Source: a virus
Length of the DNA stretch: 31,646 nucleotides
IMG/VR virus record: IMGVR_UViG_3300034066_001592
Span: 1-31,646 of that record
Strand: one strand, 5' to 3'
Made by a program: the position numbers and the translations under genes. How positions within the stretch are numbered: the stretch's first letter is position 1; each line of letters opens with the position of its first letter. Positions 1-23,192 of the stretch are shown one piece after another. The notes below the pieces were generated by a model. That model searched no databases. It was not told the origin of the DNA and worked only from the letters and a program-made list of their open reading frames with translations.

Positions 1-314
1 AAGATTATTCGGAAGCGGGGCGTAGAAAGAATGTAGAATTAGCTCAACATCTTGCACACTTTATCCATAACAAAGGTGGAGTTGCATTAGTATCATTAGT
101 ATCCCCATATAAAGACCAAAGAGATTCATTCAAACAATTAATAGGGGATGATAATATCAAAGAAATATATATTCATACAACGGAGAGTAGAGGTAGGGAG
201 CATTTCTTTGTAGAAGGATATCAGCCTCCAATTGAAAATTTTATAGATTGTGATACGACAATTGATAATGAATTTCAATCATATAGAAAATTATTGGAAA
301 AATTAGATTTATGA
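1..314 (+). CDS. cysC: Adenylylsulfate (APS) kinase, C-terminal part
   Basis: The open frame enters from the left edge (first full codon at base 3) and stops with TGA at 312-314, giving about 103 residues. The visible part starts with DYSEAGRRKNVELAQ, matching the conserved (D)xSExxRxxNxxxx helix of APS kinases. It continues with VALVSLVSPYKDQRD, the counterpart of the family's VSFISPFRxxRD segment. APS kinase phosphorylates adenylylsulfate to PAPS, the sulfate donor for sulfotransferases. The P-loop half lies outside the window. A sulfotransferase gene sits in the same operon (3933-4670) and a DUF2061 gene, a known companion of APS kinases, is three genes on. The stop overlaps the next start as ATGA. 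Family call is firm; activity cannot be judged without the N-terminus. Confidence 0.8.
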   Translation, partial: DYSEAGRRKNVELAQHLAHFIHNKGGVALVSLVSPYKDQRDSFKQLIGDDNIKEIYIHTTESRGREHFFVEGYQPPIENFIDCDTTIDNEFQSYRKLLEKLDL

Positions 315-880
315 TTTATCAACATCCATTATTTAATAAAGAGGAATGTGATTTAATAAAATCATATATAAAATTACAACCTACTAAATTAAGTGAATAT
401 TTTAATTTATCTAATAATTTTAAATTAATAGATGGTAATAAAATTGTGACAAATAACACATCATATAGAGTATCTATCATACCAAATATATCAGAAACGG
501 AATGGATGTTTGAAAAAATATTAATATGGTTTAGTCATACTAATAATATTGAATTAAATACTATTAACAAAGTAGAATATTGTACTTTACATCAATATGG
601 AGTTGGGGATTCTTTTTCAAAACATATAGATTTAGCCGAAGGGTTCGATACTAGACGATATAATTTAGGAATCCAATTAAACGATTCGTATGAAGGAGGA
701 GAATATGTATGTTGGGATGATAATAACAATGAAGTTCTAATCTCGAAACAAATCGGAACTGCATTATCATATCATTGTAGAATTTGGCACGAAATAAAGA
801 AAATTACAAATGGTGAAAGGTGGTCAATTGTGATGCCAATTAAAAAACAACATATAAATGAAAAAATAAATTTAATATAA
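311..880 (+). CDS. 2-oxoglutarate/Fe(II)-dependent oxygenase, prolyl-hydroxylase-like
   Basis: This 189-aa protein has the double-stranded beta-helix signature of 2OG/Fe(II) dioxygenases. The iron-binding H105-x-D107 lies in KHIDLA, a distal His (most likely H160, in RIWHEI) follows, and R170 (GERWSIVM) is placed to bind 2-oxoglutarate. The core phrase LGIQLNDSYEGGEY resembles prolyl 4-hydroxylase-type proteins common in marine T4-like phages. The substrate is unknown and could be a peptide, a small molecule or a glycan. The start overlaps the APS kinase stop (ATGA), and the next gene begins one base after this stop, so it is translated within the same operon. Confidence 0.85.
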   Translation: MIYQHPLFNKEECDLIKSYIKLQPTKLSEYFNLSNNFKLIDGNKIVTNNTSYRVSIIPNISETEWMFEKILIWFSHTNNIELNTINKVEYCTLHQYGVGDSFSKHIDLAEGFDTRRYNLGIQLNDSYEGGEYVCWDDNNNEVLISKQIGTALSYHCRIWHEIKKITNGERWSIVMPIKKQHINEKINLI

Positions 881-881
881 T

Positions 882-1259
882 ATGAAAAAATACGCATTGT
901 ACATCGGAAGATGGCAGAATTGGCATAAAGGACATGAATGGTTAATTAATCAACAATTAAATCAAGGTAAAAATGTTTGGGTAGCAATTAGAGATGTTCA
1001 GCAAGATGAGAACAACCCAAAGACAGCTCATCAAATCCTTAAAGAATTATCAAACGAACCATTCTTTACAAACAATTTCGATAAGATTTTGTTATCTATT
1101 ATTCCAGATATAGAATCGGTAAACTATGGTAGAGGTGTAGGGTATGATGTAATCTATCATGAACCACCATCCGATGTAGCAGTAATTAGTGGAACTGCAA
1201 TCAGAACAGGTCATATGACACCAGATGGAAATATTACTTATGATGAAACTAAAGGATAG
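882..1259 (+). CDS. Small cytidylyltransferase-like nucleotidyltransferase
   Basis: The 125-aa protein opens with YIGRWQNWHKGHEWLI, the (T/H)xGH nucleotide-binding motif of the HIGH superfamily (NMNAT, cytidylyltransferase, ATP sulfurylase). It ends with VISGTAIRTG, the counterpart of the ISxTxxR motif. Such enzymes transfer an NMP from an NTP and release pyrophosphate. Its position beside APS kinase makes a role in sulfate activation attractive, since ATP sulfurylase belongs to the same superfamily, but at 125 aa it is far shorter than known ATP sulfurylases. NMN or a sugar/alcohol phosphate are alternative substrates. The TAG stop shares its G with the next gene's GTG start. Confidence 0.75.
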   Translation: MKKYALYIGRWQNWHKGHEWLINQQLNQGKNVWVAIRDVQQDENNPKTAHQILKELSNEPFFTNNFDKILLSIIPDIESVNYGRGVGYDVIYHEPPSDVAVISGTAIRTGHMTPDGNITYDETKG

Positions 1260-1471
1260 TGATAGTACAACGTAAAAGACATATCGCTAAGACCATCTCA
1301 TATCGTATTATATCAACTCTAATCGGATTTGGTATAATGTGGTGGGTAAGTGGTTCAATTAAAGTAGGGGCTGCATTTGGAGTGGCAGAATTAGTGTATA
1401 AACCCATTCAATATTATCTACATGAAAGAGTATGGTATAAGTGGATTAAATATGGATTAAAAGATAAATAA
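1259..1471 (+). CDS. DUF2061 family small membrane protein
   Basis: The 70-aa protein resembles the DUF2061 family: basic N-terminus (QRKRHIAKTISYRIISTL), two short hydrophobic stretches (about residues 17-31 and 36-48) and the typical KPIQYYLHERVW ending. DUF2061 proteins are often encoded next to, or fused with, APS kinases in bacteria; their biochemical role is not known. It begins with GTG, whose G is the last base of the preceding TAG stop, and its own TAA overlaps the next ATG. Both overlaps support real translation despite the small size. The location is predicted to be the inner membrane. Confidence 0.8.
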   Translation: MIVQRKRHIAKTISYRIISTLIGFGIMWWVSGSIKVGAAFGVAELVYKPIQYYLHERVWYKWIKYGLKDK

Positions 1472-2040
1472 TGTTTTACAAATTTATTCAAAACTTTTTA
1501 AGTAAAGAAGAATGTGATTATATAATTTCCGTTGGAGAAGCTAATGGATTACATCAAATGAAATCGTCTAGAATCCTAAATGGAGTGGTGGTGGAAGAAG
1601 ATACTGAATACATTGGTAATAAAAGAATGGGTGGGTATTTCATAGATGATGTATTATCAGATTCCCGTATAAAGAGTATATCAGATAAAATTTTATCAAT
1701 TTCAAATGGGTTAAATCCATTCAATGGTGTAACATATACTTCTATTCCAAAGTATTCATTTAATCGTTATTCCGATGGAGATTTTTTGGATTCACATGAA
1801 GATAAGCATGAGATAATAAATGGTGCAACTATAACACTTATTATTCAGTTAAATGATAATTATGAAGGAGGGTTGGTTAAATACAATATAAATAAAGTAG
1901 AGTATTCAGTACCGAAAGAATTGGGAAGTGTGTTTATATTTGATTCTAATATAACACATTCGGTTGATACTATAGAATCTGGTCTAAGATATTCGTTGAA
2001 TGTTTGGCCATCATCAATTAAAAAAGTTAGTTTAATATGA
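1471..2040 (+). CDS. 2-oxoglutarate/Fe(II)-dependent oxygenase, prolyl-hydroxylase-like
   Basis: A second 189-aa dioxygenase. NRYSDGDFLDSHED contains the iron ligands H109-E110-D111 (HxD); H163 (ITHSV) is the distal His, and R173 (GLRYSLNVW) is the expected 2-oxoglutarate ligand. The N-terminus FYKFIQNFLSKEECDYII matches the leader seen in prolyl 4-hydroxylase-like proteins. It shares the QLND-YEGG phrase with the product of 311-880, so the two are distant paralogues rather than recent duplicates. Substrate unknown. It overlaps the halogenase gene start by four bases. Confidence 0.85.
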   Translation: MFYKFIQNFLSKEECDYIISVGEANGLHQMKSSRILNGVVVEEDTEYIGNKRMGGYFIDDVLSDSRIKSISDKILSISNGLNPFNGVTYTSIPKYSFNRYSDGDFLDSHEDKHEIINGATITLIIQLNDNYEGGLVKYNINKVEYSVPKELGSVFIFDSNITHSVDTIESGLRYSLNVWPSSIKKVSLI

Positions 2041-3284
2041 AAAATATAATTGTTATAGGTGGAGGTACTGCTGGTTGGTTAACCGCTTTATCTGTTAATA
2101 AATTTTGGAAAGATTCATCTGTTACTCTAATAGAGAGTTCTAAGATTGGAATATTGGGAGCAGGTGAGGGTGCTACTCCTAACTTTGGCGCATTTTTATC
2201 TTTGCTGGAAATAAACCAAAATGATTTTTTTAAAAGAACTGGATGTACTAGCAAACTCGGATTAACTCTATCAAATTGGACAGGTGATGGTAAAAGTTCA
2301 TCACATCTTTTTACCGGACCTAAACCAAATGAATATAAACAGAACTACGCATATCATTTTGATGCTAGAATGGTAGCGGAATATCTAAAGGAGGTATCGT
2401 TATCAAGAGGTGTTAAGTGGATTGATGGTGAAGTTGATAATGTAAGTAAAGATGGTGATGATATTCACTCTATTTCACTTAAGGAAGGAATTGATATTAA
2501 AGATGTGGATTTTGTGTTTGATTGTAGTGGATTCGCTAAAGTTATTATAGGTAAGGTTCATAATGAGGAATGGATTGATTATTCTAAATATCTTTTGTTG
2601 AATACAGCTATGGCATATTTCTTACCACAAGAAAATCAATACTCAATAGGAGATGTAACACATACTAATATGATTTCAATGAATTCAGGTTGGATGTGGC
2701 AGATACCATTACAACACCGATGGGGATGTGGATATACATTCAATTCAGAATTCATTACTGTTGAAGAAGCTAAGAAGGAAGTAGAGGATTATATTGGTAA
2801 AGAAATTACTATACAAAAAGTATTTGATTTTAAACCAGGTAGACATAAAAGAAGTTGGATAGGTAATAGTGTTGCTATTGGTTTATCTTCTGGATTTATA
2901 GAGCCGTTAGAGGCTACCTCATTGATGTCGACAATAATGCAGTTAAAGAGATTGATAAGTGCTAAATTTGATGTATCTTATAGAGATAGGTTTAATGATT
3001 CATGTGCAAGTGTTAATGAACAGAATATGATGTTTGTTAGGTATCATTATTTAGCAGAAAGATTCGATACTCCATTTTGGAAAGCATCATACGAAATGCC
3101 TATTCCAGAAAAACTAAAATTAATATTAGATGATAATAATAATTTGATACCAAAAACAAATGCTGAATTACTAAAAATGTTTGATTTAAAAGAGGTTGGT
3201 GAAACCGAATTAACTTTCTTTATATACAATTACCAAATGATTTTTAAGAAAAACAAAAAGGTTTTACACAAAGAATTAATATAA
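2037..3284 (+). CDS. Flavin-dependent tryptophan-halogenase family protein
   Basis: The 415-aa protein has the full set of flavin-dependent halogenase marks. The FAD dinucleotide motif is GGGTAGW (residues 8-14), GEGATP (43-48) is the counterpart of the family's GExTxP, and WMWQIP (219-224) is the WxWxIP signature that separates halogenases from monooxygenases. K73, in KLGLTLSNW, sits where the catalytic lysine of PrnA/RebH is found. E292, in FIEPLEATSL, aligns with the catalytic glutamate, with ATS replacing the usual STG. Such enzymes use FADH2, O2 and halide to make hypohalous acid. No flavin reductase is visible here, so the host must supply FADH2. Viral halogenases are known from cyanophage (VirX1). 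Substrate unknown: free indole, peptide Trp or a phenol are all possible. Confidence 0.88.
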   Translation: MKNIIVIGGGTAGWLTALSVNKFWKDSSVTLIESSKIGILGAGEGATPNFGAFLSLLEINQNDFFKRTGCTSKLGLTLSNWTGDGKSSSHLFTGPKPNEYKQNYAYHFDARMVAEYLKEVSLSRGVKWIDGEVDNVSKDGDDIHSISLKEGIDIKDVDFVFDCSGFAKVIIGKVHNEEWIDYSKYLLLNTAMAYFLPQENQYSIGDVTHTNMISMNSGWMWQIPLQHRWGCGYTFNSEFITVEEAKKEVEDYIGKEITIQKVFDFKPGRHKRSWIGNSVAIGLSSGFIEPLEATSLMSTIMQLKRLISAKFDVSYRDRFNDSCASVNEQNMMFVRYHYLAERFDTPFWKASYEMPIPEKLKLILDDNNNLIPKTNAELLKMFDLKEVGETELTFFIYNYQMIFKKNKKVLHKELI

Positions 3285-3285
3285 T

Positions 3286-3933
3286 ATGGAAAAGGTCTAC
3301 TTCGATGATACTACATTTATATGGAAAGGTAAATTAAATTTATCATCTCATAAAGATACCATCTTAAAGGAAGCTAATAATTTAATAAGCTCTTTAAAAG
3401 AAGTAGTTCGTACCGATGGTTTTGGATATAAAAAAGAATGGATTAATGATATAAATTTCAATGGAAACTTTACAATAGAAAACAAATTGGATGAGGTTTG
3501 TCAATATGGAATTGATAAATGTAAAGAAATATACAAATCACAATTTCATAAAGAATTTAATAAGATTAATACGGATGCGTGGGTAAATGTAGTTCGCTCA
3601 AAAGAACCTGTACAAGAAAATTTCTATGATGAAAAGAACAAATTCCATACTCATACAGAAATTAATAAAAAAACAAAATCATTCATTCCACATTACACCT
3701 ATGTATATTATATACAAATGCCTGATATAATGGAAGGTGAAGATGGTGTATTATATTTTAAAGGAGAAAATGGTAAAGAATATTGGATACGACCTGAAGA
3801 AGATGATTTAATAGTAATGGAAGGTTGGATGCCACACTCTCCAAATAATGCTCCAAATTCTACAATAGATAGAGTTGTATTAGCAGGTAATGTTGGGTTT
3901 GATATGATTAAAAAAGAAAAAAGTTTGGTATAA
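3286..3933 (+). CDS. 2OG/Fe(II) oxygenase-like protein (PF13759-type)
   Basis: In this 215-aa protein HTHTE (121-125) provides candidate iron ligands, followed by YVYYIQMPD, GVLYFKG, then MEGWMPHSPNNAPN (distal H184) and R196 in DRVVLAGNVGF. That order, H-x-H/E then xVYYxxxP then a lone H before a conserved Arg, is typical of the putative 2OG-Fe(II) oxygenase family often annotated in T4-like phages. The N-terminal 90 residues carry no recognised domain. It starts two bases after the halogenase stop and ends in a TAATG overlap with the sulfotransferase, placing it inside the tailoring operon. Substrate unknown. Confidence 0.7.
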   Translation: MEKVYFDDTTFIWKGKLNLSSHKDTILKEANNLISSLKEVVRTDGFGYKKEWINDINFNGNFTIENKLDEVCQYGIDKCKEIYKSQFHKEFNKINTDAWVNVVRSKEPVQENFYDEKNKFHTHTEINKKTKSFIPHYTYVYYIQMPDIMEGEDGVLYFKGENGKEYWIRPEEDDLIVMEGWMPHSPNNAPNSTIDRVVLAGNVGFDMIKKEKSLV

Positions 3934-4670
3934 TGTTAGTAGATAATAAATTTTTATATATTTCATTACCTCGTTGTGGTTCAACTTCATTTCATTATTC
4001 TTGTATAGTAAATGGTATAGATGTAAAAAACTTAGATACTAAAGGTGATTTTGATAATTCTAAAATAGATTTTAATTCTATGAATGAATCGGATATAATG
4101 AATTTTATACAACATGCACACGAACCTCTATCGGAATTGCAAAAGAAATTTGGTTATGATTTACCTATAATCTCGGTAAATCGAAATAAGTATGATAGAT
4201 TTTATTCCCTATATAAGCATATTATATTTGATTTAGATAGAATTGAGTTAAAAGAATTATCATATAAGTTTTCTAAATTTACATTGGATGAATTATTTTT
4301 TTTTCATACAAGTGATGTTATGACAAAGAAAAATAGATACGATATTATAAAAGAATATTTATTTGATATAATGCCTGAATTAAAGTATAATGACTCATAT
4401 CGATACGTTGTTAATATAATTGATATTTTATTGACTCCTCTTTCACATTGGCACACTCATCATAAAAATATTATTTGGTTTAATATCGATGAAATGTATA
4501 AATTGGAAGAATGGGTATCTAACATCACTAATAGTGAATTTAAATTGAAACATATAAATTCAAGTTCATTCATAGAAACTAATATACAATTGGATAGTAA
4601 ATTTATGTTAAGATATGATTCTATATACGAACGTTATGAATCTCCAAAGAGTAATAACTCAATAATATGA
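3933..4670 (+). CDS. PAPS-dependent sulfotransferase family protein
   Basis: This 245-aa protein begins with FLYISLPRCGSTSFHY. PRCGSTS (13-19) is the 5'-phosphosulfate-binding loop of sulfotransferases. SVNRNKYDRFYSLYKH (81-96) matches the 3'-phosphate-binding segment, with R84 and S92 in the conserved spacing and the RFxSxYxH pattern. It would transfer sulfate from PAPS to a hydroxyl or amine. APS kinase, the enzyme that makes PAPS, is encoded at the start of the same operon, so donor supply and use are genetically coupled. The acceptor is unknown: glycan, tyrosine in a peptide, or a small molecule. Start overlaps the previous stop (TAATG). Confidence 0.82.
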   Translation: MLVDNKFLYISLPRCGSTSFHYSCIVNGIDVKNLDTKGDFDNSKIDFNSMNESDIMNFIQHAHEPLSELQKKFGYDLPIISVNRNKYDRFYSLYKHIIFDLDRIELKELSYKFSKFTLDELFFFHTSDVMTKKNRYDIIKEYLFDIMPELKYNDSYRYVVNIIDILLTPLSHWHTHHKNIIWFNIDEMYKLEEWVSNITNSEFKLKHINSSSFIETNIQLDSKFMLRYDSIYERYESPKSNNSII

Positions 4671-4957
4671 TACCAAACTATAGAGAAATATTTGAAGCTT
4701 GGGTGATTTCAAAAAATCCAACAGAAACCCAAAAATCTATGGCACAGGATAGATTAGAAATATGTAAATCTTGTGAACATAGAAAAGAGACACTTAAGGG
4801 AATTAAATGGTCTACGGTATGTAAGTTATGTGGATGTCCATTGAGTAAAAAAGTATTTTCTCCTATGTTTAATCCCTGTCCAATGGAGAAATGGGAAGAA
4901 ATTGATTCTAAATATATGAAGCGAATACCTAAAAAAACTAAAGACACTATAATATAA
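4667..4957 (+). CDS. Small zinc-ribbon-like protein
   Basis: The 96-aa protein has two Cys clusters, C33-x2-C36 and C52-x2-C55-x-C57, plus C71, arranged as a zinc ribbon (CKSCEHR ... CKLCGCPL ... NPCPMEKW). Similar short Cys-rich proteins are frequent in T4-like marine phages. It could be a DNA-, RNA- or protein-binding adaptor, but nothing in the sequence decides this. It overlaps the sulfotransferase gene by four bases (ATGA) and is the last gene of the coupled run that starts left of the window. Confidence 0.7.
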   Translation: MIPNYREIFEAWVISKNPTETQKSMAQDRLEICKSCEHRKETLKGIKWSTVCKLCGCPLSKKVFSPMFNPCPMEKWEEIDSKYMKRIPKKTKDTII

Positions 4958-4964
4958 AAAACAG

Positions 4965-4973
4965 ATATTTATA
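4965..4973 (+). promoter_or_regulatory. ATATTTATA motif, candidate phage promoter element
   Basis: The motif ATATTTATA lies in the 36-base gap before the 493-aa gene, ending 20 bases upstream of its ATG. The core TATTTATA is also found at 14120, 18259 and 26983, each time upstream of a start. It could be this phage's late-promoter -10 element; the reverse complement of the core is TATAAATA, the T4 late box. No experimental support. Confidence 0.35.
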
Positions 4974-4993
4974 CTAAATTAACAGAATACTAT

Positions 4994-6475
4994 ATGAAAG
5001 GAGTGATAATTGGCAGTGATTTATTGGAACACAATGGAGATGTCAAGTTTATAGAAACTAACACAAATACAACTATTTATAATCGTGGAGCTGAAATGCT
5101 TGAGTATGATAGTTTGTTTGATATGCTTAATTCAAATGGGATAACCGAATTTCATTTTATTTGGACGGAAACCGATGCATTCATTCCTCTTTATGAACCA
5201 TATAAGTTTAAGGAAATTTTAGAACAAAAGTGTTCCGAAAATGGTATCTCATTTAATGATTATGTTGTACCAATGGGTTCTATTACTGTACCTTATATAG
5301 AAGATTCTTCGACTAAGTTTATCTTAAGACAATCTTATGATACAACTGCACTAATAGATGAAACGTATTGTGCTGATAAATTTGGTTTTTTTAATCTAAT
5401 GAGTGGTTCAGACTATATACCAAACACATATCAATCTCATTCAGAGTTGGGAATCGATACATTATCTAATGTAGATACATCTGATTTATCAAATCCAAAT
5501 GTTGTGGTAAAGGCAAGGTATCCTCAGTATGATAGGGGTACATATCCTGAAATTCATACAGTTTCTGATTTAGACCAATTAAATAATATAAAGGTAAGTT
5601 TACCAACCGATTATTTAGTTCAAGAATTCATATATTCATCTGATAATGTAGTTGAGGATAGATATTCTATAATTAGAAGTATTGATATTGTATATGGAAG
5701 TGAATTGGATGTTATTAATATGGGAGGGTATAGACACTCTTCTATTTTGCCAATGGCAACATTTGAAAATGAATTTAAAAGTGGGTCAACAAAATTAGAC
5801 CAAAAAAGTAGATATAAGTATATCACAAAGGTAGTAGATGATGTAAAACAAGAATATCATACTGATGAAGATTCTTTAATTGTAGATTATACCGGTTCAC
5901 TACAAAGAGCAGATACTATACAATTAGGTACTTATATTCGTTCTATTGATTTTGTTGATTTCAATGGTAATCATGGAGCTAATTTTGAAGAAGGAAAATT
6001 AGATGTATTAGGGTGGGAAAGTACATTACAACAATCTAGAGATACATTAACTCAGACCTCATCAAGTTTAAACCACATTACATCTGCTTCAGTTGATACA
6101 ATGTTTATTAGAGTTACTCTTACAGATGGTAGAAGTTGGATAGATTCTCCTGCGTGTACATACTATATAGAAGAATCAGGTTCATCTGCAACTAGATTTG
6201 AGATTTTAAATAAAATGTATGTGGGTGATAAAATAGTAATCACAAATGCTGAAACTTCTGAATTAACTACATTAGAAATTGCAGAATTGGAAATGGAACA
6301 CACAAAGATGATGGTATATGCTTTAGATTTTGAACCATCTGACCTTTTCTTAGTTGATTTAGGAGCAGGTAATTATGGAGTTATGCATAATCCGTGTTGG
6401 TGTCCATGGAGTTTCTGCGGAGACTGGTGTTATTCAGCGTGGTGTCCTAACTGTATTGTGAATCCAATAAAATAA
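4994..6475 (+). CDS. ATP-grasp-like protein with Hint-like domain and Cys/Trp-rich tail
   Basis: The 493-aa protein is probably modular. Residues 1 to about 250 look like a pre-ATP-grasp/ATP-grasp arrangement: KFIETNTNT near the N-terminus, then NVVVKARYPQYDRGTYPE (168-185), DYLVQEFI (206-213) and IIRSIDIVY. This call is tentative. Residues about 300-466 resemble a Hint (hedgehog/intein) domain: VTLTDGRSWIDSPAC in the block-B position (the usual TxxH reads SPAC), MYVGDKIVI (408-416), VYALDFEPSDLFLVD and a final MHN (464-466), the His-Asn pair that ends Hint domains. A 27-residue tail follows, with C468, C470, C475, C479, C484 and C487, four Trp and one Tyr. No Cys is obvious at the expected N-terminal Hint nucleophile. 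The role is unknown; possible self-cleavage after N466 would release the tail. Confidence 0.55.
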   Translation: MKGVIIGSDLLEHNGDVKFIETNTNTTIYNRGAEMLEYDSLFDMLNSNGITEFHFIWTETDAFIPLYEPYKFKEILEQKCSENGISFNDYVVPMGSITVPYIEDSSTKFILRQSYDTTALIDETYCADKFGFFNLMSGSDYIPNTYQSHSELGIDTLSNVDTSDLSNPNVVVKARYPQYDRGTYPEIHTVSDLDQLNNIKVSLPTDYLVQEFIYSSDNVVEDRYSIIRSIDIVYGSELDVINMGGYRHSSILPMATFENEFKSGSTKLDQKSRYKYITKVVDDVKQEYHTDEDSLIVDYTGSLQRADTIQLGTYIRSIDFVDFNGNHGANFEEGKLDVLGWESTLQQSRDTLTQTSSSLNHITSASVDTMFIRVTLTDGRSWIDSPACTYYIEESGSSATRFEILNKMYVGDKIVITNAETSELTTLEIAELEMEHTKMMVYALDFEPSDLFLVDLGAGNYGVMHNPCWCPWSFCGDWCYSAWCPNCIVNPIK

Positions 6476-6638: not shown

Positions 6639-7208
6639 ATGGAAAAGTTATTTTACAAAAACCAAAATTGGGATGAGTTTCATGTCAATAGTGGTAAGGT
6701 TTTGACGGATGTAAAGATTATATCCAATTCAGTTTATCATGAATTTAGAGGTTCTATATGGACTACATTTCATTCGGATTATTTCCCAAAAGTATTACCA
6801 ACTGATTTACAATTTAAGCACGATAGATTCTCACAATCATATAAAGGTGTATTGAGGGGATTACATTATGATGATAAGACTTGGAAACTACTAAGTTGTC
6901 CTTTGGGTTCATTATATACGGTGTTAGTTGATATGAGACCAGATTCGGAAACATATTTAAAATCAGAAACATTTATAATGTCTCCTCAAACTCAAATACA
7001 GATACTTTGCCCTCCGATGTTTGCAAACGGTCACTACGTTCTAACAGATGATTCTCTTTTCACATATAAAATGGCATACGAAGGAGAGTATAACGATGAT
7101 ACTAAACAAAAAACAGTTAGATGGGATGACCCTAAGTTAGGAATAGATTGGCCTACACAAACTCCTATTCTTTCTAAGAGGGATGCTAAAGCAGCATTTA
7201 TTGATTAA
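6639..7208 (+). CDS. rmlC: dTDP-4-dehydrorhamnose 3,5-epimerase-like protein (RmlC)
   Basis: The 189-aa protein is of usual RmlC length. SQSYKGVLRGLHYDD (65-79) contains the family's KGVLRGLHYQ motif with R74 and the catalytic base H76. It is followed by GSLYTVLVDMRPDSETY, PPMFANGHYVL, a Tyr-containing YEGEYND, and DPKLGIDWP near the end. RmlC-type cupin epimerases invert C3/C5 of a dTDP-4-keto-6-deoxy sugar on the way to rhamnose and related sugars. No rmlA, rmlB or rmlD is in the window, so it may act on host nucleotide sugars. Two bases separate its start from the A-rich end of the preceding small gene. Confidence 0.85.
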   Translation: MEKLFYKNQNWDEFHVNSGKVLTDVKIISNSVYHEFRGSIWTTFHSDYFPKVLPTDLQFKHDRFSQSYKGVLRGLHYDDKTWKLLSCPLGSLYTVLVDMRPDSETYLKSETFIMSPQTQIQILCPPMFANGHYVLTDDSLFTYKMAYEGEYNDDTKQKTVRWDDPKLGIDWPTQTPILSKRDAKAAFID

Positions 7209-7209
7209 T

Positions 7210-8238
7210 ATGAGTATCAAACCTTATATAAGAAATGAATGGGGCAAACTAAAAGAGATAATAGTTGGCAGACCAGAGTTTGCTCAGATTCCTACTATAA
7301 GAGATAAATCTTTACATACGATTGATTACGCTAATTATACAGACGACCAATTTCGTAAGATACCCTATGGAACTTATCCTAAATGGATGATTGAGGAAAC
7401 GAAAGAGGATTTAGATAACCTATCAATTACATTAGAAGGGTTGGGTGTTAAAGTACATAGGCCTTCTCTAATTGATTGGAGTGAGAAGTATTCAACTGAA
7501 AATTGGGAAGTAGATGGATACTATGGATACTGCCCTAGAGATTCTATGTTGATTATAGAAGATAAAGTTATTGCTACTCCTATGGCTCTCCGCCAAAGAC
7601 AAAATGAAACTAGAGCATTTAAACATTTATTCGATGAATCACATTGGGTGGATTTTCCTAAACCAAAATTATTAGATTCAATATACGATAGGGGGTTATT
7701 ACCTGCACCTACATTAAGGAACGATGAACCCGTATTTGATGCGGCTAACATCCTTAAGTGTAATAACGATATACTATTCCTAATTTCCAACACCGGTAAT
7801 AGAGCAGGAGCAGAATATCTTCAAAAATGGTTAGATGATAATATGAAAGAAAAGTATAATGTACATCCAATAGAAGATGTGTATGCATTCATTCATATTG
7901 ATACCACTTTTGTACTCATTAGAGAGGGACTGGTCTTAGTTAATCCGAAAAGGGTAAATAGTACTAACCTACCTAAAATCTTTCAATCGTGGGAGGTTAT
8001 ATACTCTCCTGAGATGGTGGAGACAAATTGTTTAGAACATTGGGCAGAAGCATCACCCTGGTTGGGAATGAATACACTATCTTATGATGAGAATACAATG
8101 ATAGTAGAGGAAAGACAAATCCCTCTTATGAAAGAATTAAAGAAGTATGGGGTAGATTCTATACCCGTCCGTATGAGGCACGCTAGAACCTTTAGTGGTG
8201 GCCCTCATTGTGTAACATTGGATACAATTAGAGAATAA
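7210..8238 (+). CDS. Glycine amidinotransferase-like protein
   Basis: The start is set at ATG 7210, just after the epimerase stop; a longer in-frame start at 7183 would overlap that gene. The 342-aa protein has the guanidino-group-modifying fold of the amidinotransferase family. It has EWGKLKEIIVGRPEF at the N-terminus, YCPRDSMLIIEDKVI, EPVFDAANILKCNNDILF (catalytic Asp region), YAFIHIDTTFVLI (catalytic His) and SGGPHCVTLD with the nucleophilic Cys334 close to the C-terminus. The family moves an amidino group from arginine to an amine, giving for example guanidinoacetate, or the guanidino groups of aminoglycosides. Next to RmlC it may decorate a sugar, but the acceptor is unknown. Confidence 0.85.
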   Translation: MSIKPYIRNEWGKLKEIIVGRPEFAQIPTIRDKSLHTIDYANYTDDQFRKIPYGTYPKWMIEETKEDLDNLSITLEGLGVKVHRPSLIDWSEKYSTENWEVDGYYGYCPRDSMLIIEDKVIATPMALRQRQNETRAFKHLFDESHWVDFPKPKLLDSIYDRGLLPAPTLRNDEPVFDAANILKCNNDILFLISNTGNRAGAEYLQKWLDDNMKEKYNVHPIEDVYAFIHIDTTFVLIREGLVLVNPKRVNSTNLPKIFQSWEVIYSPEMVETNCLEHWAEASPWLGMNTLSYDENTMIVEERQIPLMKELKKYGVDSIPVRMRHARTFSGGPHCVTLDTIRE

Positions 8239-10081: not shown

Positions 10082-10457
10082 GGGGGTGCCTGGTTTTGAC
10101 AGGTACGATGAGTTGGTAAGTTGCAAGCAGGGTTAGATGGAAATCCTTAAATACCTATCGAACAATAAATGACGTAGAATTATCTACAATGACCTTCGAA
10201 GATGCTATGGCATTCGTTGGTGCTGATTACGCTCTAGCAGCCTAATCCCTCCCGCACACATCGTGGGACTTAAAATAGAATGTGTACCAAGGTGGAAAAG
10301 TGATTGAACCCAAAATCGAATCACCCATTGTTTATCGGTTGCCGATGGTGAAGAACCAACCGAATATTTTGTTAGTTAAGAAAAACTAACTAAGCTTGTG
10401 AATGATGTTTATTGAATCCGTATTTGGACGAGGGTTCGACTCCCTCCACCTCCACCA
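10082..10457 (+). ncRNA. ssrA: Transfer-messenger RNA (tmRNA)
   Basis: A complete one-piece tmRNA of 376 bases. The 5' GGGGGUG pairs with CACCUCC before ACCA at the 3' end, with a G-U pair at the third position, which is the alanine identity element. CCA is encoded. The T-arm reads GAGGG-UUCGACU-CCCUC (5 bp stem, 7-base loop), and ACUAAGCUUGU upstream of it matches a conserved tmRNA segment. After the tag stop, UCCC (10250-10253 or 10246-10249) with GGGA (10265-10268), and ACACAU (10256-10261) with AUGUGU (10280-10285), interleave as a pseudoknot. tmRNA rescues stalled ribosomes and tags the nascent chain for proteolysis. It lies on the same strand as its neighbours and has no clear promoter of its own. 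Confidence 0.95.
10171..10245 (+). other. tmRNA tag reading frame with long proteolysis tag
   Basis: The frame ends with GCT-CTA-GCA-GCC-TAA, coding ALAA, the ClpXP-type degron end; the last eight residues are GADYALAA. Reading back, the frame is open to GAC at 10171. Aligning the upstream AATAAAT with the AATAGTC that precedes the E. coli resume codon makes GAC the likely resume codon. The tag would then be 24 residues, starting DVELS, compared with roughly 8-15 in most bacteria. The resume codon is inferred and could lie downstream of this. Confidence 0.65.
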
Positions 10458-20790: not shown

Positions 20791-21510
20791 ATGCCGAGAA
20801 AACCAAAAACACCGAAGAGTAAAATGTATTTCACTCTCGAAACGGAAGAAGCGATAATTGCATACAATAAATCGGATAATCTTAGAGAGAGAAATGTATT
20901 ATATACGGAGAAAATTAAGTATCCATTTGAAAAAATAGCAGAGAACGTACTTAATACTTATAAATTCTCATACTTCGATGATGGGCATTCAGATGTAAAA
21001 AGAGAAGTAGTATCTCAGATGATTTATAAAATCCATATGTTTCAGGAGGGTAAAGGTAAAGCGTTCTCTTACTTTACTAGAATGGCATTAAATCATTTAA
21101 TACTTTTAAATAATTCAAACTATAAGCGATATAAACAAAATGAATTGATGTCAGCAATGCCTGAGAGTTGGAATCCATCGGAGGATACAATGGCAATGGA
21201 AACCGCTGATAACCACATTGAATTTAGAACTCTTATGTTATCATATTGGGATGTAAGATTGAATGTGGTATTTGATAAGAAAAGAGATATTCAAATTGCG
21301 GATGCTATATTAGAATTATTTAGGAGAGTTGATTACATTGAAAATTTTAACAAAAAAAGTTTATACCTGTTAATAAGAGAAATGACAGGTCATAAAACAC
21401 ATTACATAACAAAAGTGATATCTACTATGAAAACTCATCAGGATGCGATATTAGAAGAATACCTTAACACAGGAGATATCACTATAGAAGAAGACATATT
21501 TTATAAATGA
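20791..21510 (+). CDS. 55: Late-transcription sigma factor, T4 gp55-like
   Basis: The 239-aa protein has the marine T4-like gp55 pattern. After a short basic N-terminus comes FTLETEEAIIAYNKSDNLRERNVLYTEKIKYPFEKIAENVLNT in outline (residues 14-56). Then follow DVKREVVSQMIYKIHMFQ and GKAFSYFTRMALNHLILLN, the sigma region-2-like helices that contact RNA polymerase and the late -10 box. The C-terminal part carries helices ending in EEDIFYK. In T4, gp55 directs host polymerase to TATAAATA promoters, working with the sliding clamp. It overlaps the carbamoyltransferase gene by four bases (ATGA). The motif TATTTATA found upstream of several genes may be its target. Confidence 0.85.
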   Translation: MPRKPKTPKSKMYFTLETEEAIIAYNKSDNLRERNVLYTEKIKYPFEKIAENVLNTYKFSYFDDGHSDVKREVVSQMIYKIHMFQEGKGKAFSYFTRMALNHLILLNNSNYKRYKQNELMSAMPESWNPSEDTMAMETADNHIEFRTLMLSYWDVRLNVVFDKKRDIQIADAILELFRRVDYIENFNKKSLYLLIREMTGHKTHYITKVISTMKTHQDAILEEYLNTGDITIEEDIFYK

Positions 21511-23192
21511 TACAATTAGGAATAAGCTGTTATTATCATGATTCATCGGTATCCTTAGTTAAGGATGGTAAGGTGGTCTTAGCAGTAGAAGAAGAAAGAT
21601 TTAGTGGGATAAAGCATGATAGTTCATTTCCAGAAAAATCAATCAAATGGATTATTGAAGAATCAGGATTTAGTTTTGAAGATATTGAAGAGGTTTGTTT
21701 TTATGAAAAACCATTAATAAAAACACACAGAATAGTAACCACCTGTTTAAAAAACCTACAAATAGTAGATGCTTTTAAATTCGCATTTAAAGGAGTTAGT
21801 CAATATAACGAATTAAGGAAAAAATTGAAATGGATGTTTTCCAAAGCCCAAATTAAATTTACATCACACCACAATTCACATATTGGATATTCGTATTTAA
21901 CCTCTCCATATAGAGAATCGGCAATATTAAGTATTGATGGAGTTGGAGAATGGGATACCACTGTTTTAGCGCATGGAAATGGAAATAGTTGGGAAACATT
22001 AGAGGCTACAAAATTTCCACATTCGTTGGGTATGTTATATTCTACGTTTACCGCCTTCTTAGGATTCAAACCTAATGAAGGTGAGTATAAAGTAATGGGT
22101 TTAGCTCCATACGGTAACCCCAAAACATTTTCGCACAAATTTAGAGAAATAATTTTTCCTTCTAAGAAAGGTGGTTATACTCTTAATATGAAAATGTTTC
22201 AATATGATAAAAGTGATGAAGTGATGTTCACTTCGGAATTAGCAAATCATTTGGGTATTCTACCTCGTTTGCCGGAAGAAAAAATAACTCAAGAACATAA
22301 AGATTTAGCAGCTACCGTGCAATTCATTTATGAGATGTACTTTTTTCGTTTATTAAAAGATTTGCATCGCAGAACTAAATGTGATAATTTAGTATTAGGG
22401 GGAGGATGTGCATACAACGGAACTGCTAACGGAAAGATTTCAAAGAAGACAGGATTTAAAAATGTATGGATACCAAACGCGCCATCTGATGCAGGTTCAT
22501 CTATTGGAGCGTGTTTAATATCATATTATAATAATACTCATCCACATAGAGTTGATAATACAAATCCTTATTTAGGTCCAAAATATCCTACAGATATTAT
22601 CAAAAAGGAATTACAAAATTATAATAAAAAATTAATATATAATAAATTATCTGATGATGAAATTATTTCAGTTGTTGCAAACGCAATATCAAATGGTGAA
22701 GTTGTGGCTTGGTTCGAAGGTAGATTGGAATTTGGTGCTAGAGCCCTTGGGCATCGTTCTATTTTGGCTGACCCTACAAATGGGGAAATAAAAAGTAGAA
22801 TAAATAGGATAGTAAAAAAGAGAGAAGGATTTAGACCATTTGCACCAATTGTAAAGTTGGAAGATGTTTCTAAGTATTTTGAATGGGATAAATCAGTTCC
22901 ATATATGAATCAAATAGTAGGTGTTAAAAAAGAATATAGAGATATGTTACCTGCGATTACTCACGTTGATGGAACTGCTAGAATACAAACTTTAGATAGA
23001 GAACAATGTGTAAGAATTTATGATTTACTCACAGAGTTGGAAAAGCAAAACGAATACCCTATAGTTCTTAACACATCATTCAATATTAAAGACCAAACAA
23101 TGATTAGAGACCCAAAAACGGCAATAGATACATTTTTGGATATTGGATTAGATATGTTGGTATTAGAGGATTATGTTATAACTAAGAAATGA
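21507..23192 (+). CDS. Carbamoyltransferase, NodU/CmcH family
   Basis: The 561-aa protein has the full-length two-domain NodU/TobZ layout. The N-terminal Kae1/YrdC-like part begins LGISCYYHDSSVSLVKDGKV, with EEERFSGIKHD, TSHHNSHIGYSY and LSIDGVGEW, then LVLGGGCAYNGTANGKI. The C-terminal part has EFGARALGHRSILADP and IVLNTSFNIKDQTMIRDP. These enzymes transfer a carbamoyl group from carbamoyl phosphate, via carbamoyl adenylate, to hydroxyls on sugars or antibiotics. Homologues are known in T4-like cyanophages. The acceptor is unknown. It is coupled by ATGA overlaps both to the late sigma gene upstream and to an SGNH protein downstream, which suggests late or mid-late expression. Confidence 0.92.
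   Translation: MIQLGISCYYHDSSVSLVKDGKVVLAVEEERFSGIKHDSSFPEKSIKWIIEESGFSFEDIEEVCFYEKPLIKTHRIVTTCLKNLQIVDAFKFAFKGVSQYNELRKKLKWMFSKAQIKFTSHHNSHIGYSYLTSPYRESAILSIDGVGEWDTTVLAHGNGNSWETLEATKFPHSLGMLYSTFTAFLGFKPNEGEYKVMGLAPYGNPKTFSHKFREIIFPSKKGGYTLNMKMFQYDKSDEVMFTSELANHLGILPRLPEEKITQEHKDLAATVQFIYEMYFFRLLKDLHRRTKCDNLVLGGGCAYNGTANGKISKKTGFKNVWIPNAPSDAGSSIGACLISYYNNTHPHRVDNTNPYLGPKYPTDIIKKELQNYNKKLIYNKLSDDEIISVVANAISNGEVVAWFEGRLEFGARALGHRSILADPTNGEIKSRINRIVKKREGFRPFAPIVKLEDVSKYFEWDKSVPYMNQIVGVKKEYRDMLPAITHVDGTARIQTLDREQCVRIYDLLTELEKQNEYPIVLNTSFNIKDQTMIRDPKTAIDTFLDIGLDMLVLEDYVITKK

Follow-up and report, generated by a model that had tools for sequence, protein, structure and literature searches.

The question raised by the first kilobases of IMG/VR virus record IMGVR_UViG_3300034066_001592 (positions 1 to 31,646; this whole stretch of a viral contig, 31,646 bases long and recorded without a completeness estimate, is referred to here as the window) is what a phage would sulfate, halogenate and hydroxylate. 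A block of tailoring genes at 3-4957 encodes an adenosine-5'-phosphosulfate (APS) kinase for making 3'-phosphoadenosine-5'-phosphosulfate (PAPS), a PAPS sulfotransferase, a flavin-dependent halogenase and three 2-oxoglutarate (2OG)-Fe(II) oxygenases, here called oxyA, oxyB and oxyC, and it is followed by a further gene, gene 10, at 4994-6475. An initial annotation of the block had proposed a peptide, a glycan or a host metabolite as the acceptor; of these a peptide is now favored, and the likely acceptor, the C-terminal tail of gene 10, lay outside the range that annotation covered. We propose that these genes form a peptide-tailoring system encoded by the phage, in which gene 10 bears its own acceptor tail. 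We consider this reading evenly balanced between true and false, and a single substrate for all the enzymes is inferred.

The block consists of nine open reading frames (ORFs) joined by 1- or 4-base overlaps or 1-base gaps in the window ORF calls, and these coordinates agree with the nine-gene run described initially. The gene order described there also held overall, except that oxyA (311-880) actually lies between the APS kinase and nucleotidyltransferase genes. Probing IMG/VR with the halogenase yielded 18 loci, and further probes, with the tail pattern of gene 10, with gene 10 minus its tail and with oxyC, brought the collection to 56 distinct clusters, with a later gene 10 set of 61 rows. 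Related phages do not carry the genes scattered and independently: the order oxygenases-halogenase-oxyC-sulfotransferase-zinc ribbon-gene 10 is kept in the 56 distinct phage clusters, to the extent of the contigs, and this conserved order supports the earlier proposal that PAPS supply, sulfation, halogenation and hydroxylation are coupled in one functional unit. The usual arrangement is APS kinase, nucleotidyltransferase, DUF2061 and oxygenases, then halogenase, oxyC, in some cases oxyB, sulfotransferase, zinc ribbon and gene 10, with the part from APS kinase to oxygenases sitting elsewhere in some phages. Some clusters have no halogenase, oxyA is absent from some relatives' clusters, and some of the 18 halogenase-probe loci, all of which keep the block order, have inserted extra oxygenases or a second sulfotransferase. 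As the order recurs in contigs whose halogenases are 40-100% identical, the arrangement is more than chance.

Gene 10 belongs to this arrangement. It comes straight after the zinc-ribbon gene in every covered cluster (its start is 37 bases downstream here), the zinc-ribbon protein is present in nearly all clusters, and gene 10 was present in 52 of the 55 newly fetched evaluable loci obtained with the oxyC probe. In the remaining three, oxyC lies beside the nucleotidyltransferase and DUF2061 genes, away from the block; in loci L276, L286 and L287, oxyC homologues (60-62%) are found between these two genes, outside the block. The neighbors of the block differ between genomes. Gene 10 and the sulfotransferase were not found in cultured phages by tblastn, and gene 10 was not found by profile in the whole genomes of HTVC008M, Mel-JY01, P-SSM2 and syn9, or in bacterial genomes. 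The carriers are a group of uncultured tailed phages.

In the AlphaFold2 model of the gene 10 protein, residues 1-255 are of fair quality and the remainder is poor. Residues 1-255 align in VIA-align with glutathione synthase 1m0w (Z 8.2), YgiC (Z 8.0) and glutathionylspermidine synthetase ATP-grasp ligases (predicted model, Z about 8), and E21-x-N23, which we take to be a metal site like that of the permuted glutathione synthetase fold, is invariant in the homologue alignment. This N-terminal domain is predicted from the model to be a glutathione-synthetase-like ATP-grasp. The C-terminal half is a candidate Hint domain, as judged from the predicted structure together with a His-Asn pair. Its best Foldseek match is the bacterial intein-like (BIL) domain BIL2 6tmm (E 7.4e-4), with inteins and hedgehog next in rank, residues 361-440 can be superposed on inteins (VIA-align Z about 6; 7oec, 1.9 Å over 54 residues) in a region with a low predicted local distance difference test (pLDDT) score, and His465-Asn466 is invariant in 41 aligned homologues. 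Among the homologues there is no invariant Cys/Ser at the expected intein first residue (block A), and the block-B His position (TxxH) is Cys, Thr or Ala, so splicing by gene 10 is unlikely; cleavage after Asn466 may still occur.

After His465-Asn466, the typical gene 10 protein continues with CWCPWNYCGHWCNSWYCPSC, then with a segment rich in Gly or Pro, and ends in Lys-Leu/Ile. This tail is rich in Cys, Trp, Tyr and Pro, among them residues that enzymes of the block could modify, and its composition is unique to gene 10 among 1043 distinct ORFs of at least 150 amino acids in the fetched loci. The pattern HNxCWCPW was found in 69 viral contigs, with every match in gene 10, and occurred four times in 257 Gb of cellular genomes, all in short chance frames. 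In those 69 matches the search pattern itself biases the apparent conservation of CWCPW, and the unbiased sets are those from the halogenase, tail-less gene 10 and oxyC probes. Gene 10 homologues found without the tail in the query still end in HNx-C-[WY]-C, with few exceptions, and most tails retain W469, P471 and W472, including those in sets not found via the tail. Exceptions in the unbiased sets are CWCSW, CWCSY, CWCSN, CWCTW, CWCC, CYCPW, CWCPY, CWCPN and CYACGYS. The L262 gene 10 homologue (from base 3) ends in a very different tail, HNPPLGCIWCTGASTSPECPKAAPKCSAYGECVDYDTYCP, which may show tail diversification.

One residue of the tail tracks one enzyme of the block. Across 54 scoreable clusters, an oxyB orthologue and the tail Pro were both present in 40 and both missing in 12, two had Pro without oxyB, and none had oxyB without Pro; all 40 oxyB clusters have Pro after CWC or CYC. 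This was the strongest of all gene-by-position-by-residue tests (p 5e-7, uncorrected for relatedness). In oxyB, H109, D111, H163 and R173, which include the Fe ligands, are invariant, and there is a weak profile match to the PKHD-type hydroxylase 3dkq (E 0.0095). From the co-occurrence, we regard oxyB as a candidate for hydroxylating the tail Pro. In L181, one of the two clusters with Pro but no oxyB, a gene at 4055-5197 encoding 381 residues with no Pfam match stands in the place of oxyB and is a candidate substitute enzyme.

Several observations count against the tail of gene 10 being an acceptor that is released by a Hint domain. On the tree there are only 4 changes of Pro state and 5 of oxyB, giving a sign test p of 0.25; where both change, the directions agree, and six changes are needed for the sign test. 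Halogenase presence showed no association with the tail Trp across clusters, and halogenase-less clusters (L121, L132, L178 and others) retain this Trp, so that any assignment of a halogenase target is tentative. The sulfotransferase is universal, but none of the tail Tyr residues is invariant. Metal binding or disulfide formation could by itself account for the tail Cys pattern. As for the Hint domain, the match is purely structural and comes from a low-pLDDT region of the model, His465-Asn466 falls outside the structurally aligned part, and the relation was not recovered by Pfam, PDB profile or hhalign against the Npu DnaE intein (a query confirmed by its full-length match to PDB 2keq).

In an alternative reading, gene 10 is a peptide-ligase enzyme with a structural zinc/iron-sulfur or disulfide tail, the product of the operon is a small molecule or glycan that is sulfated and halogenated, and a C-terminal tag common to the enzymes (described below) assembles the complex. 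The regular spacing of the tail Cys and the retention of the tail Trp where the halogenase is missing would both be explained, and the sulfotransferase fold is nearest heparan-sulfate enzymes, with an RmlC-like epimerase, a carbamoyltransferase, methyltransferases and radical-SAM proteins nearby here or in related genomes. We nevertheless consider this alternative unlikely, as it leaves out the retention of the non-Cys residues W469, P471 and W472 in sets not found via the tail, the tracking of P471 with oxyB, and the placement of the tail after a Hint-type His-Asn, which is the position of an intein's C-extein.

The proposal that the enzymes work together on the tail draws further on a C-terminal tag, roughly K-[S/T/E]-[L/I]-[I/L]-COOH, which is common to the unrelated folds of the halogenase, oxygenases, sulfotransferase and zinc-ribbon protein. 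By family, the tag takes the forms ..KKELI (halogenase), ..KKSLI (oxyB), ..KEKSLI (oxyC), ..NKTLI (sulfotransferase) and ..KNTII (zinc ribbon). The strict tag was found in 55 of 61 sulfotransferases, 46 of 52 zinc-ribbon proteins, 45 of 50 oxyC, 35 of 41 halogenases and 35 of 39 oxyB proteins, and in 1/20 APS kinases, 0/21 nucleotidyltransferases, 0/26 DUF2061 proteins and 0/55 gene 10 proteins. It is rare genome-wide and mostly inside the cluster (7/131, 9/114 and 14/158 ORFs in three genomes). Neighboring families outside the window are mostly either tagged or untagged, with some intermediate. Among the mostly tagged families are additional sulfotransferases and 2OG oxygenases, as well as a radical-SAM protein and an FkbM methyltransferase. 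Radical-SAM proteins lie near the cluster in relatives at L162 12433-13494 (from a mostly tagged family) and L159 511-1980.

An origin of the tag as a by-product of gene overlap or ribosome-binding sites was rejected, since the tag codons vary synonymously. The zinc-ribbon gene is, moreover, tagged without a downstream overlap, and the tag is missing from the APS kinase, nucleotidyltransferase and DUF2061 families, whose genes are usually contiguous with their downstream neighbor.

Tagged acceptor-modifying enzymes, set against an untagged PAPS maker and an untagged proposed acceptor, fit the pattern expected of a recruitment tag, and gene 10 may be the tag reader, because ATP-grasp ligases of its type act on peptide carboxylates. 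The tag could instead be a trafficking, virion-packaging or proteolysis signal with no docking on gene 10, an explanation that is compatible with the tail as acceptor and that we rate as a serious contender, though somewhat improbable. The tag is short and probably disordered (in the sulfotransferase model, pLDDT is below 50 over the final 6 residues), and we take it to resemble a class I PDZ ligand (S/T-x-hydrophobic-COOH), features that would suit such a signal. Its presence on the acceptor-modifying proteins and not on the APS kinase, nucleotidyltransferase, DUF2061 or structural genes fits recruitment best, with the partner unnamed. Taken with the fixed order including gene 10 and the co-occurrence of oxyB and Pro, the limitation of the tag to part of the operon also makes it very improbable that these are ordinary auxiliary metabolic genes travelling together with no common substrate, even though cyanophages commonly carry one or another of halogenases, 2OG oxygenases and carbamoyltransferases singly (PMC3037559, PMC10452541).

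The enzyme families named in the initial annotation were borne out. Pfam recovered the APS kinase, DUF2061, two of the 2OG oxygenases and the halogenase, and the third oxygenase, oxyC, is a sub-threshold match by single sequence, with conserved residues (H121, H123, H184 and R196 are invariant in 19 homologues); oxyC is also the most universal tailoring enzyme across clusters. The APS kinase is truncated by the contig start, and a full-length copy in L200, which has the same genes, contains the P-loop GQPGAGKTT and matches solved PDB APS kinases by profile at 2e-17. The nucleotidyltransferase (882-1259) usually adjoins the APS kinase in relatives and might conceivably supply APS in a sulfurylase-like role.

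The sulfotransferase had no match in Pfam. Its AlphaFold2 model has a pLDDT of 89, all 50 listed structural matches to this predicted model (VIA-align) are sulfotransferases, and the best listed match is NDST1 (Z 9.3). P13, R14 and S17 of the 5'-phosphosulfate-binding (5'-PSB) loop and R84 and S92 of the 3'-phosphate-binding (3'-PB) segment are invariant in 26 homologues, and on its model the protein is a PAPS sulfotransferase, in agreement with the initial annotation, which had named both PAPS-binding segments. The halogenase matches BrvH, RebH, PrnA and VirX1 in the PDB. Its catalytic Lys and Glu, K73 and E292, are invariant in 21 homologues, the glycines of GGGTAGW, the flavin adenine dinucleotide (FAD) motif of GxGxxG type, are invariant among homologues, and the WxWxIP motif reads GWMWQIP in the window, with relatives often having F for the second W. 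By sequence, it is a short (415 amino acids) member of the PrnA/RebH/VirX1 family and a predicted halogenase. Substitutions breaking the halogenase and PAPS sites in a wider alignment, which would have spoken against the initial annotation, were thus not seen at these residues.

In the proposed pathway, PAPS would be supplied by the APS kinase, and the tag would gather the oxygenases, halogenase, sulfotransferase and zinc-ribbon protein at one place, perhaps gene 10 itself. The Pro of CWC-P-W would be hydroxylated by oxyB, a tail Trp or Tyr would be the halogenase target, and the sulfotransferase would act on Tyr or on a hydroxylated side chain. The Hint domain might then cut after Asn466 and so free about 27 residues as a modified peptide; alternatively, the tail might stay attached to gene 10 and be displayed. 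The most specific form of this proposal, a virus-encoded modified-peptide class in which an ATP-grasp, a Hint domain and a core form one protein whose core is halogenated, hydroxylated and sulfated by tag-recruited enzymes and then freed by Asn cyclization of a splicing-dead Hint, is put forward tentatively and is rather doubtful.

Display could also be the whole purpose of gene 10, as a virion or surface-displayed protein whose modified tail alters host recognition or shields the particle with no peptide release. Baseplate-type proteins are also encoded in the window and a cyanophage halogenase/oxygenase run adjoins tail-fiber genes, but gene 10 resembles an enzyme plus a Hint domain and not a fiber or sheath, and the cluster neighbors vary between genomes, which leaves this explanation quite improbable. 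The baseplate protein of the window is nearest those of Microcystis and Flavobacterium phages, at 39-43% identity.

We know of no infection-time substrates of phage halogenases and 2OG oxygenases, and peptide tailoring, if true, would hint at the substrate type of many such enzymes without an assigned target. It would also mean that phages make a heavily modified peptide or surface protein via chemistry otherwise known from antibiotic/toxin pathways, and that one C-terminal tag on unrelated enzymes serves as a simple recruitment code.

Known systems share parts of this arrangement. In pathways for ribosomally synthesized and post-translationally modified peptides (RiPPs) with peptide halogenases, such as MibH of NAI-107, the same enzyme families modify Trp or Pro of a ribosomal peptide; here, in contrast, the proposed acceptor is fused to predicted ATP-grasp and Hint domains, the system is viral and a tag is common to the enzymes. 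Borosins are enzyme-precursor fusions with the core peptide at the C-terminus of the catalytic domain. The core proposed here is likewise C-terminal to a catalytic domain, but ATP-grasp plus Hint replaces the N-methyltransferase, and the tailoring enzymes are separate. By analogy, the whole would resemble a RiPP pathway whose precursor is fused to an enzyme. Scans with Pfam, NCBIfam and PHROGs named no RiPP-class enzyme or recognition element, no RiPP-specific model set having been run. Gene 10 is tentatively linked to BIL and hedgehog Hint domains by its predicted fold, and like them it has a terminal His-Asn before a C-terminal extension, whereas it lacks the invariant block-A nucleophile, has the block-B His replaced and is fused to an ATP-grasp. 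With glutathione synthetase and YgiC-YjfC ligases, gene 10 shares the predicted fold and the invariant E-x-N near the N-terminus, but at about 15% identity and as part of a multidomain phage protein.

A literature search of partial coverage returned no account of ATP-grasp, Hint and a Cys/Trp tail combined in one phage protein, or of a Hint domain tied to a ribosomally synthesized precursor peptide. To our knowledge, no known system has a comparable acceptor architecture or a comparable tag-based set of enzymes, the tag itself not having been searched in the literature.

The pairing of a halogenase with 2OG oxygenases has precedent in phages, as cyanophages have such runs (PMC3037559, PMC10452541). 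A phage flavin halogenase, VirX1 from cyanophage Syn10, has been described (PMC8407142), as have phage 2OG oxygenases (PMC3037559, PMC10452541), and VirX1 and the cyanophage prnA/2OG-oxygenase runs likewise represent the tryptophan-halogenase family in phage, often beside 2OG-Fe(II) oxygenases (PMC8407142, PMC3037559). Unlike the present block, the cyanophage regions inspected (P-SSM2, syn9, HTVC008M) have no APS kinase or sulfotransferase annotation, the whole genomes of these phages are without gene 10, and the C-terminal tag is absent from the cyanophage halogenases and oxygenases checked.

Coordinates of the tailoring block, gene 10 and the C-terminal tags in the window
Feature	Coordinates	Strand	Basis
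APS kinase (cysC-like), C-terminal 103 amino acids only; untagged; predicted PAPS maker	3..314	+	Pfam APS_kinase 7.7e-9
oxyA, 2OG-Fe(II) oxygenase; C-terminus ..EKINLI	311..880	+	Pfam 2OG-FeII_Oxy_3 1e-10
Small nucleotidyltransferase, NMNAT-like (GRWQNWHKGHE .. ISGTAIR); untagged	882..1259	+	NCBIfam 1.7e-5, PHROG 10255, synteny
DUF2061 membrane protein; untagged	1259..1471	+	Pfam 1e-15
oxyB, 2OG-Fe(II) oxygenase (group ox1); tag ..KKVSLI	1471..2040	+	Pfam 2OG-FeII_Oxy_3 2e-10
Halogenase, short flavin-dependent tryptophan-halogenase family, 415 amino acids; tag ..LHKELI	2037..3284	+	Pfam Trp_halogenase 5e-92
oxyC, 2OG-Fe(II) oxygenase-like (group ox0); tag ..KKEKSLV	3286..3933	+	Pfam sub-threshold E 0.0042; conserved residues
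Predicted PAPS sulfotransferase; tag ..SNNSII	3933..4670	+	AlphaFold2 model, structural matches, PAPS motifs
Zinc-ribbon protein; tag ..KTKDTII	4667..4957	+	PHROG 13558, synteny, tag
Gene 10, predicted ATP-grasp domain, residues 1-255, glutathione synthetase / YgiC type	4994..5758	+	AlphaFold2, VIA-align, alignment
Gene 10, candidate intein-like Hint domain, about residues 289-466	5858..6391	+	Foldseek, VIA-align (predicted structure)
Gene 10, His465-Asn466 codons, candidate Asn-cyclization cleavage site	6386..6391	+	Invariant in 41 aligned homologues
Gene 10, tail PCWCPWSFCGDWCYSAWCPNCIVNPIK, putative core peptide (acceptor); codon of Pro471 at 6404-6406	6392..6472	+	Homologue tails, composition
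Shared C-terminal tag, example KDTII of zinc-ribbon protein	4940..4954	+	Family counts, codon variation
Shared C-terminal tag, remaining window copies	863-877, 2023-2037, 3267-3281, 3916-3930, 4653-4667	+	Family counts, codon variation

Beyond gene 10, positions 6639-8238 encode an RmlC-like epimerase and, after it, a protein of the arginine deiminase/amidinotransferase family; the two are about 95-98% conserved in some relatives. A phage-encoded transfer-messenger RNA (tmRNA) gene, whose tag peptide ends in ADYALAA, lies at 10082-10457. A NodU/TobZ-type carbamoyltransferase without the C-terminal tag is encoded at 21507-23192; a homologue of it lies upstream of the APS kinase in several relatives, and O-carbamoylation could belong to the same pathway.

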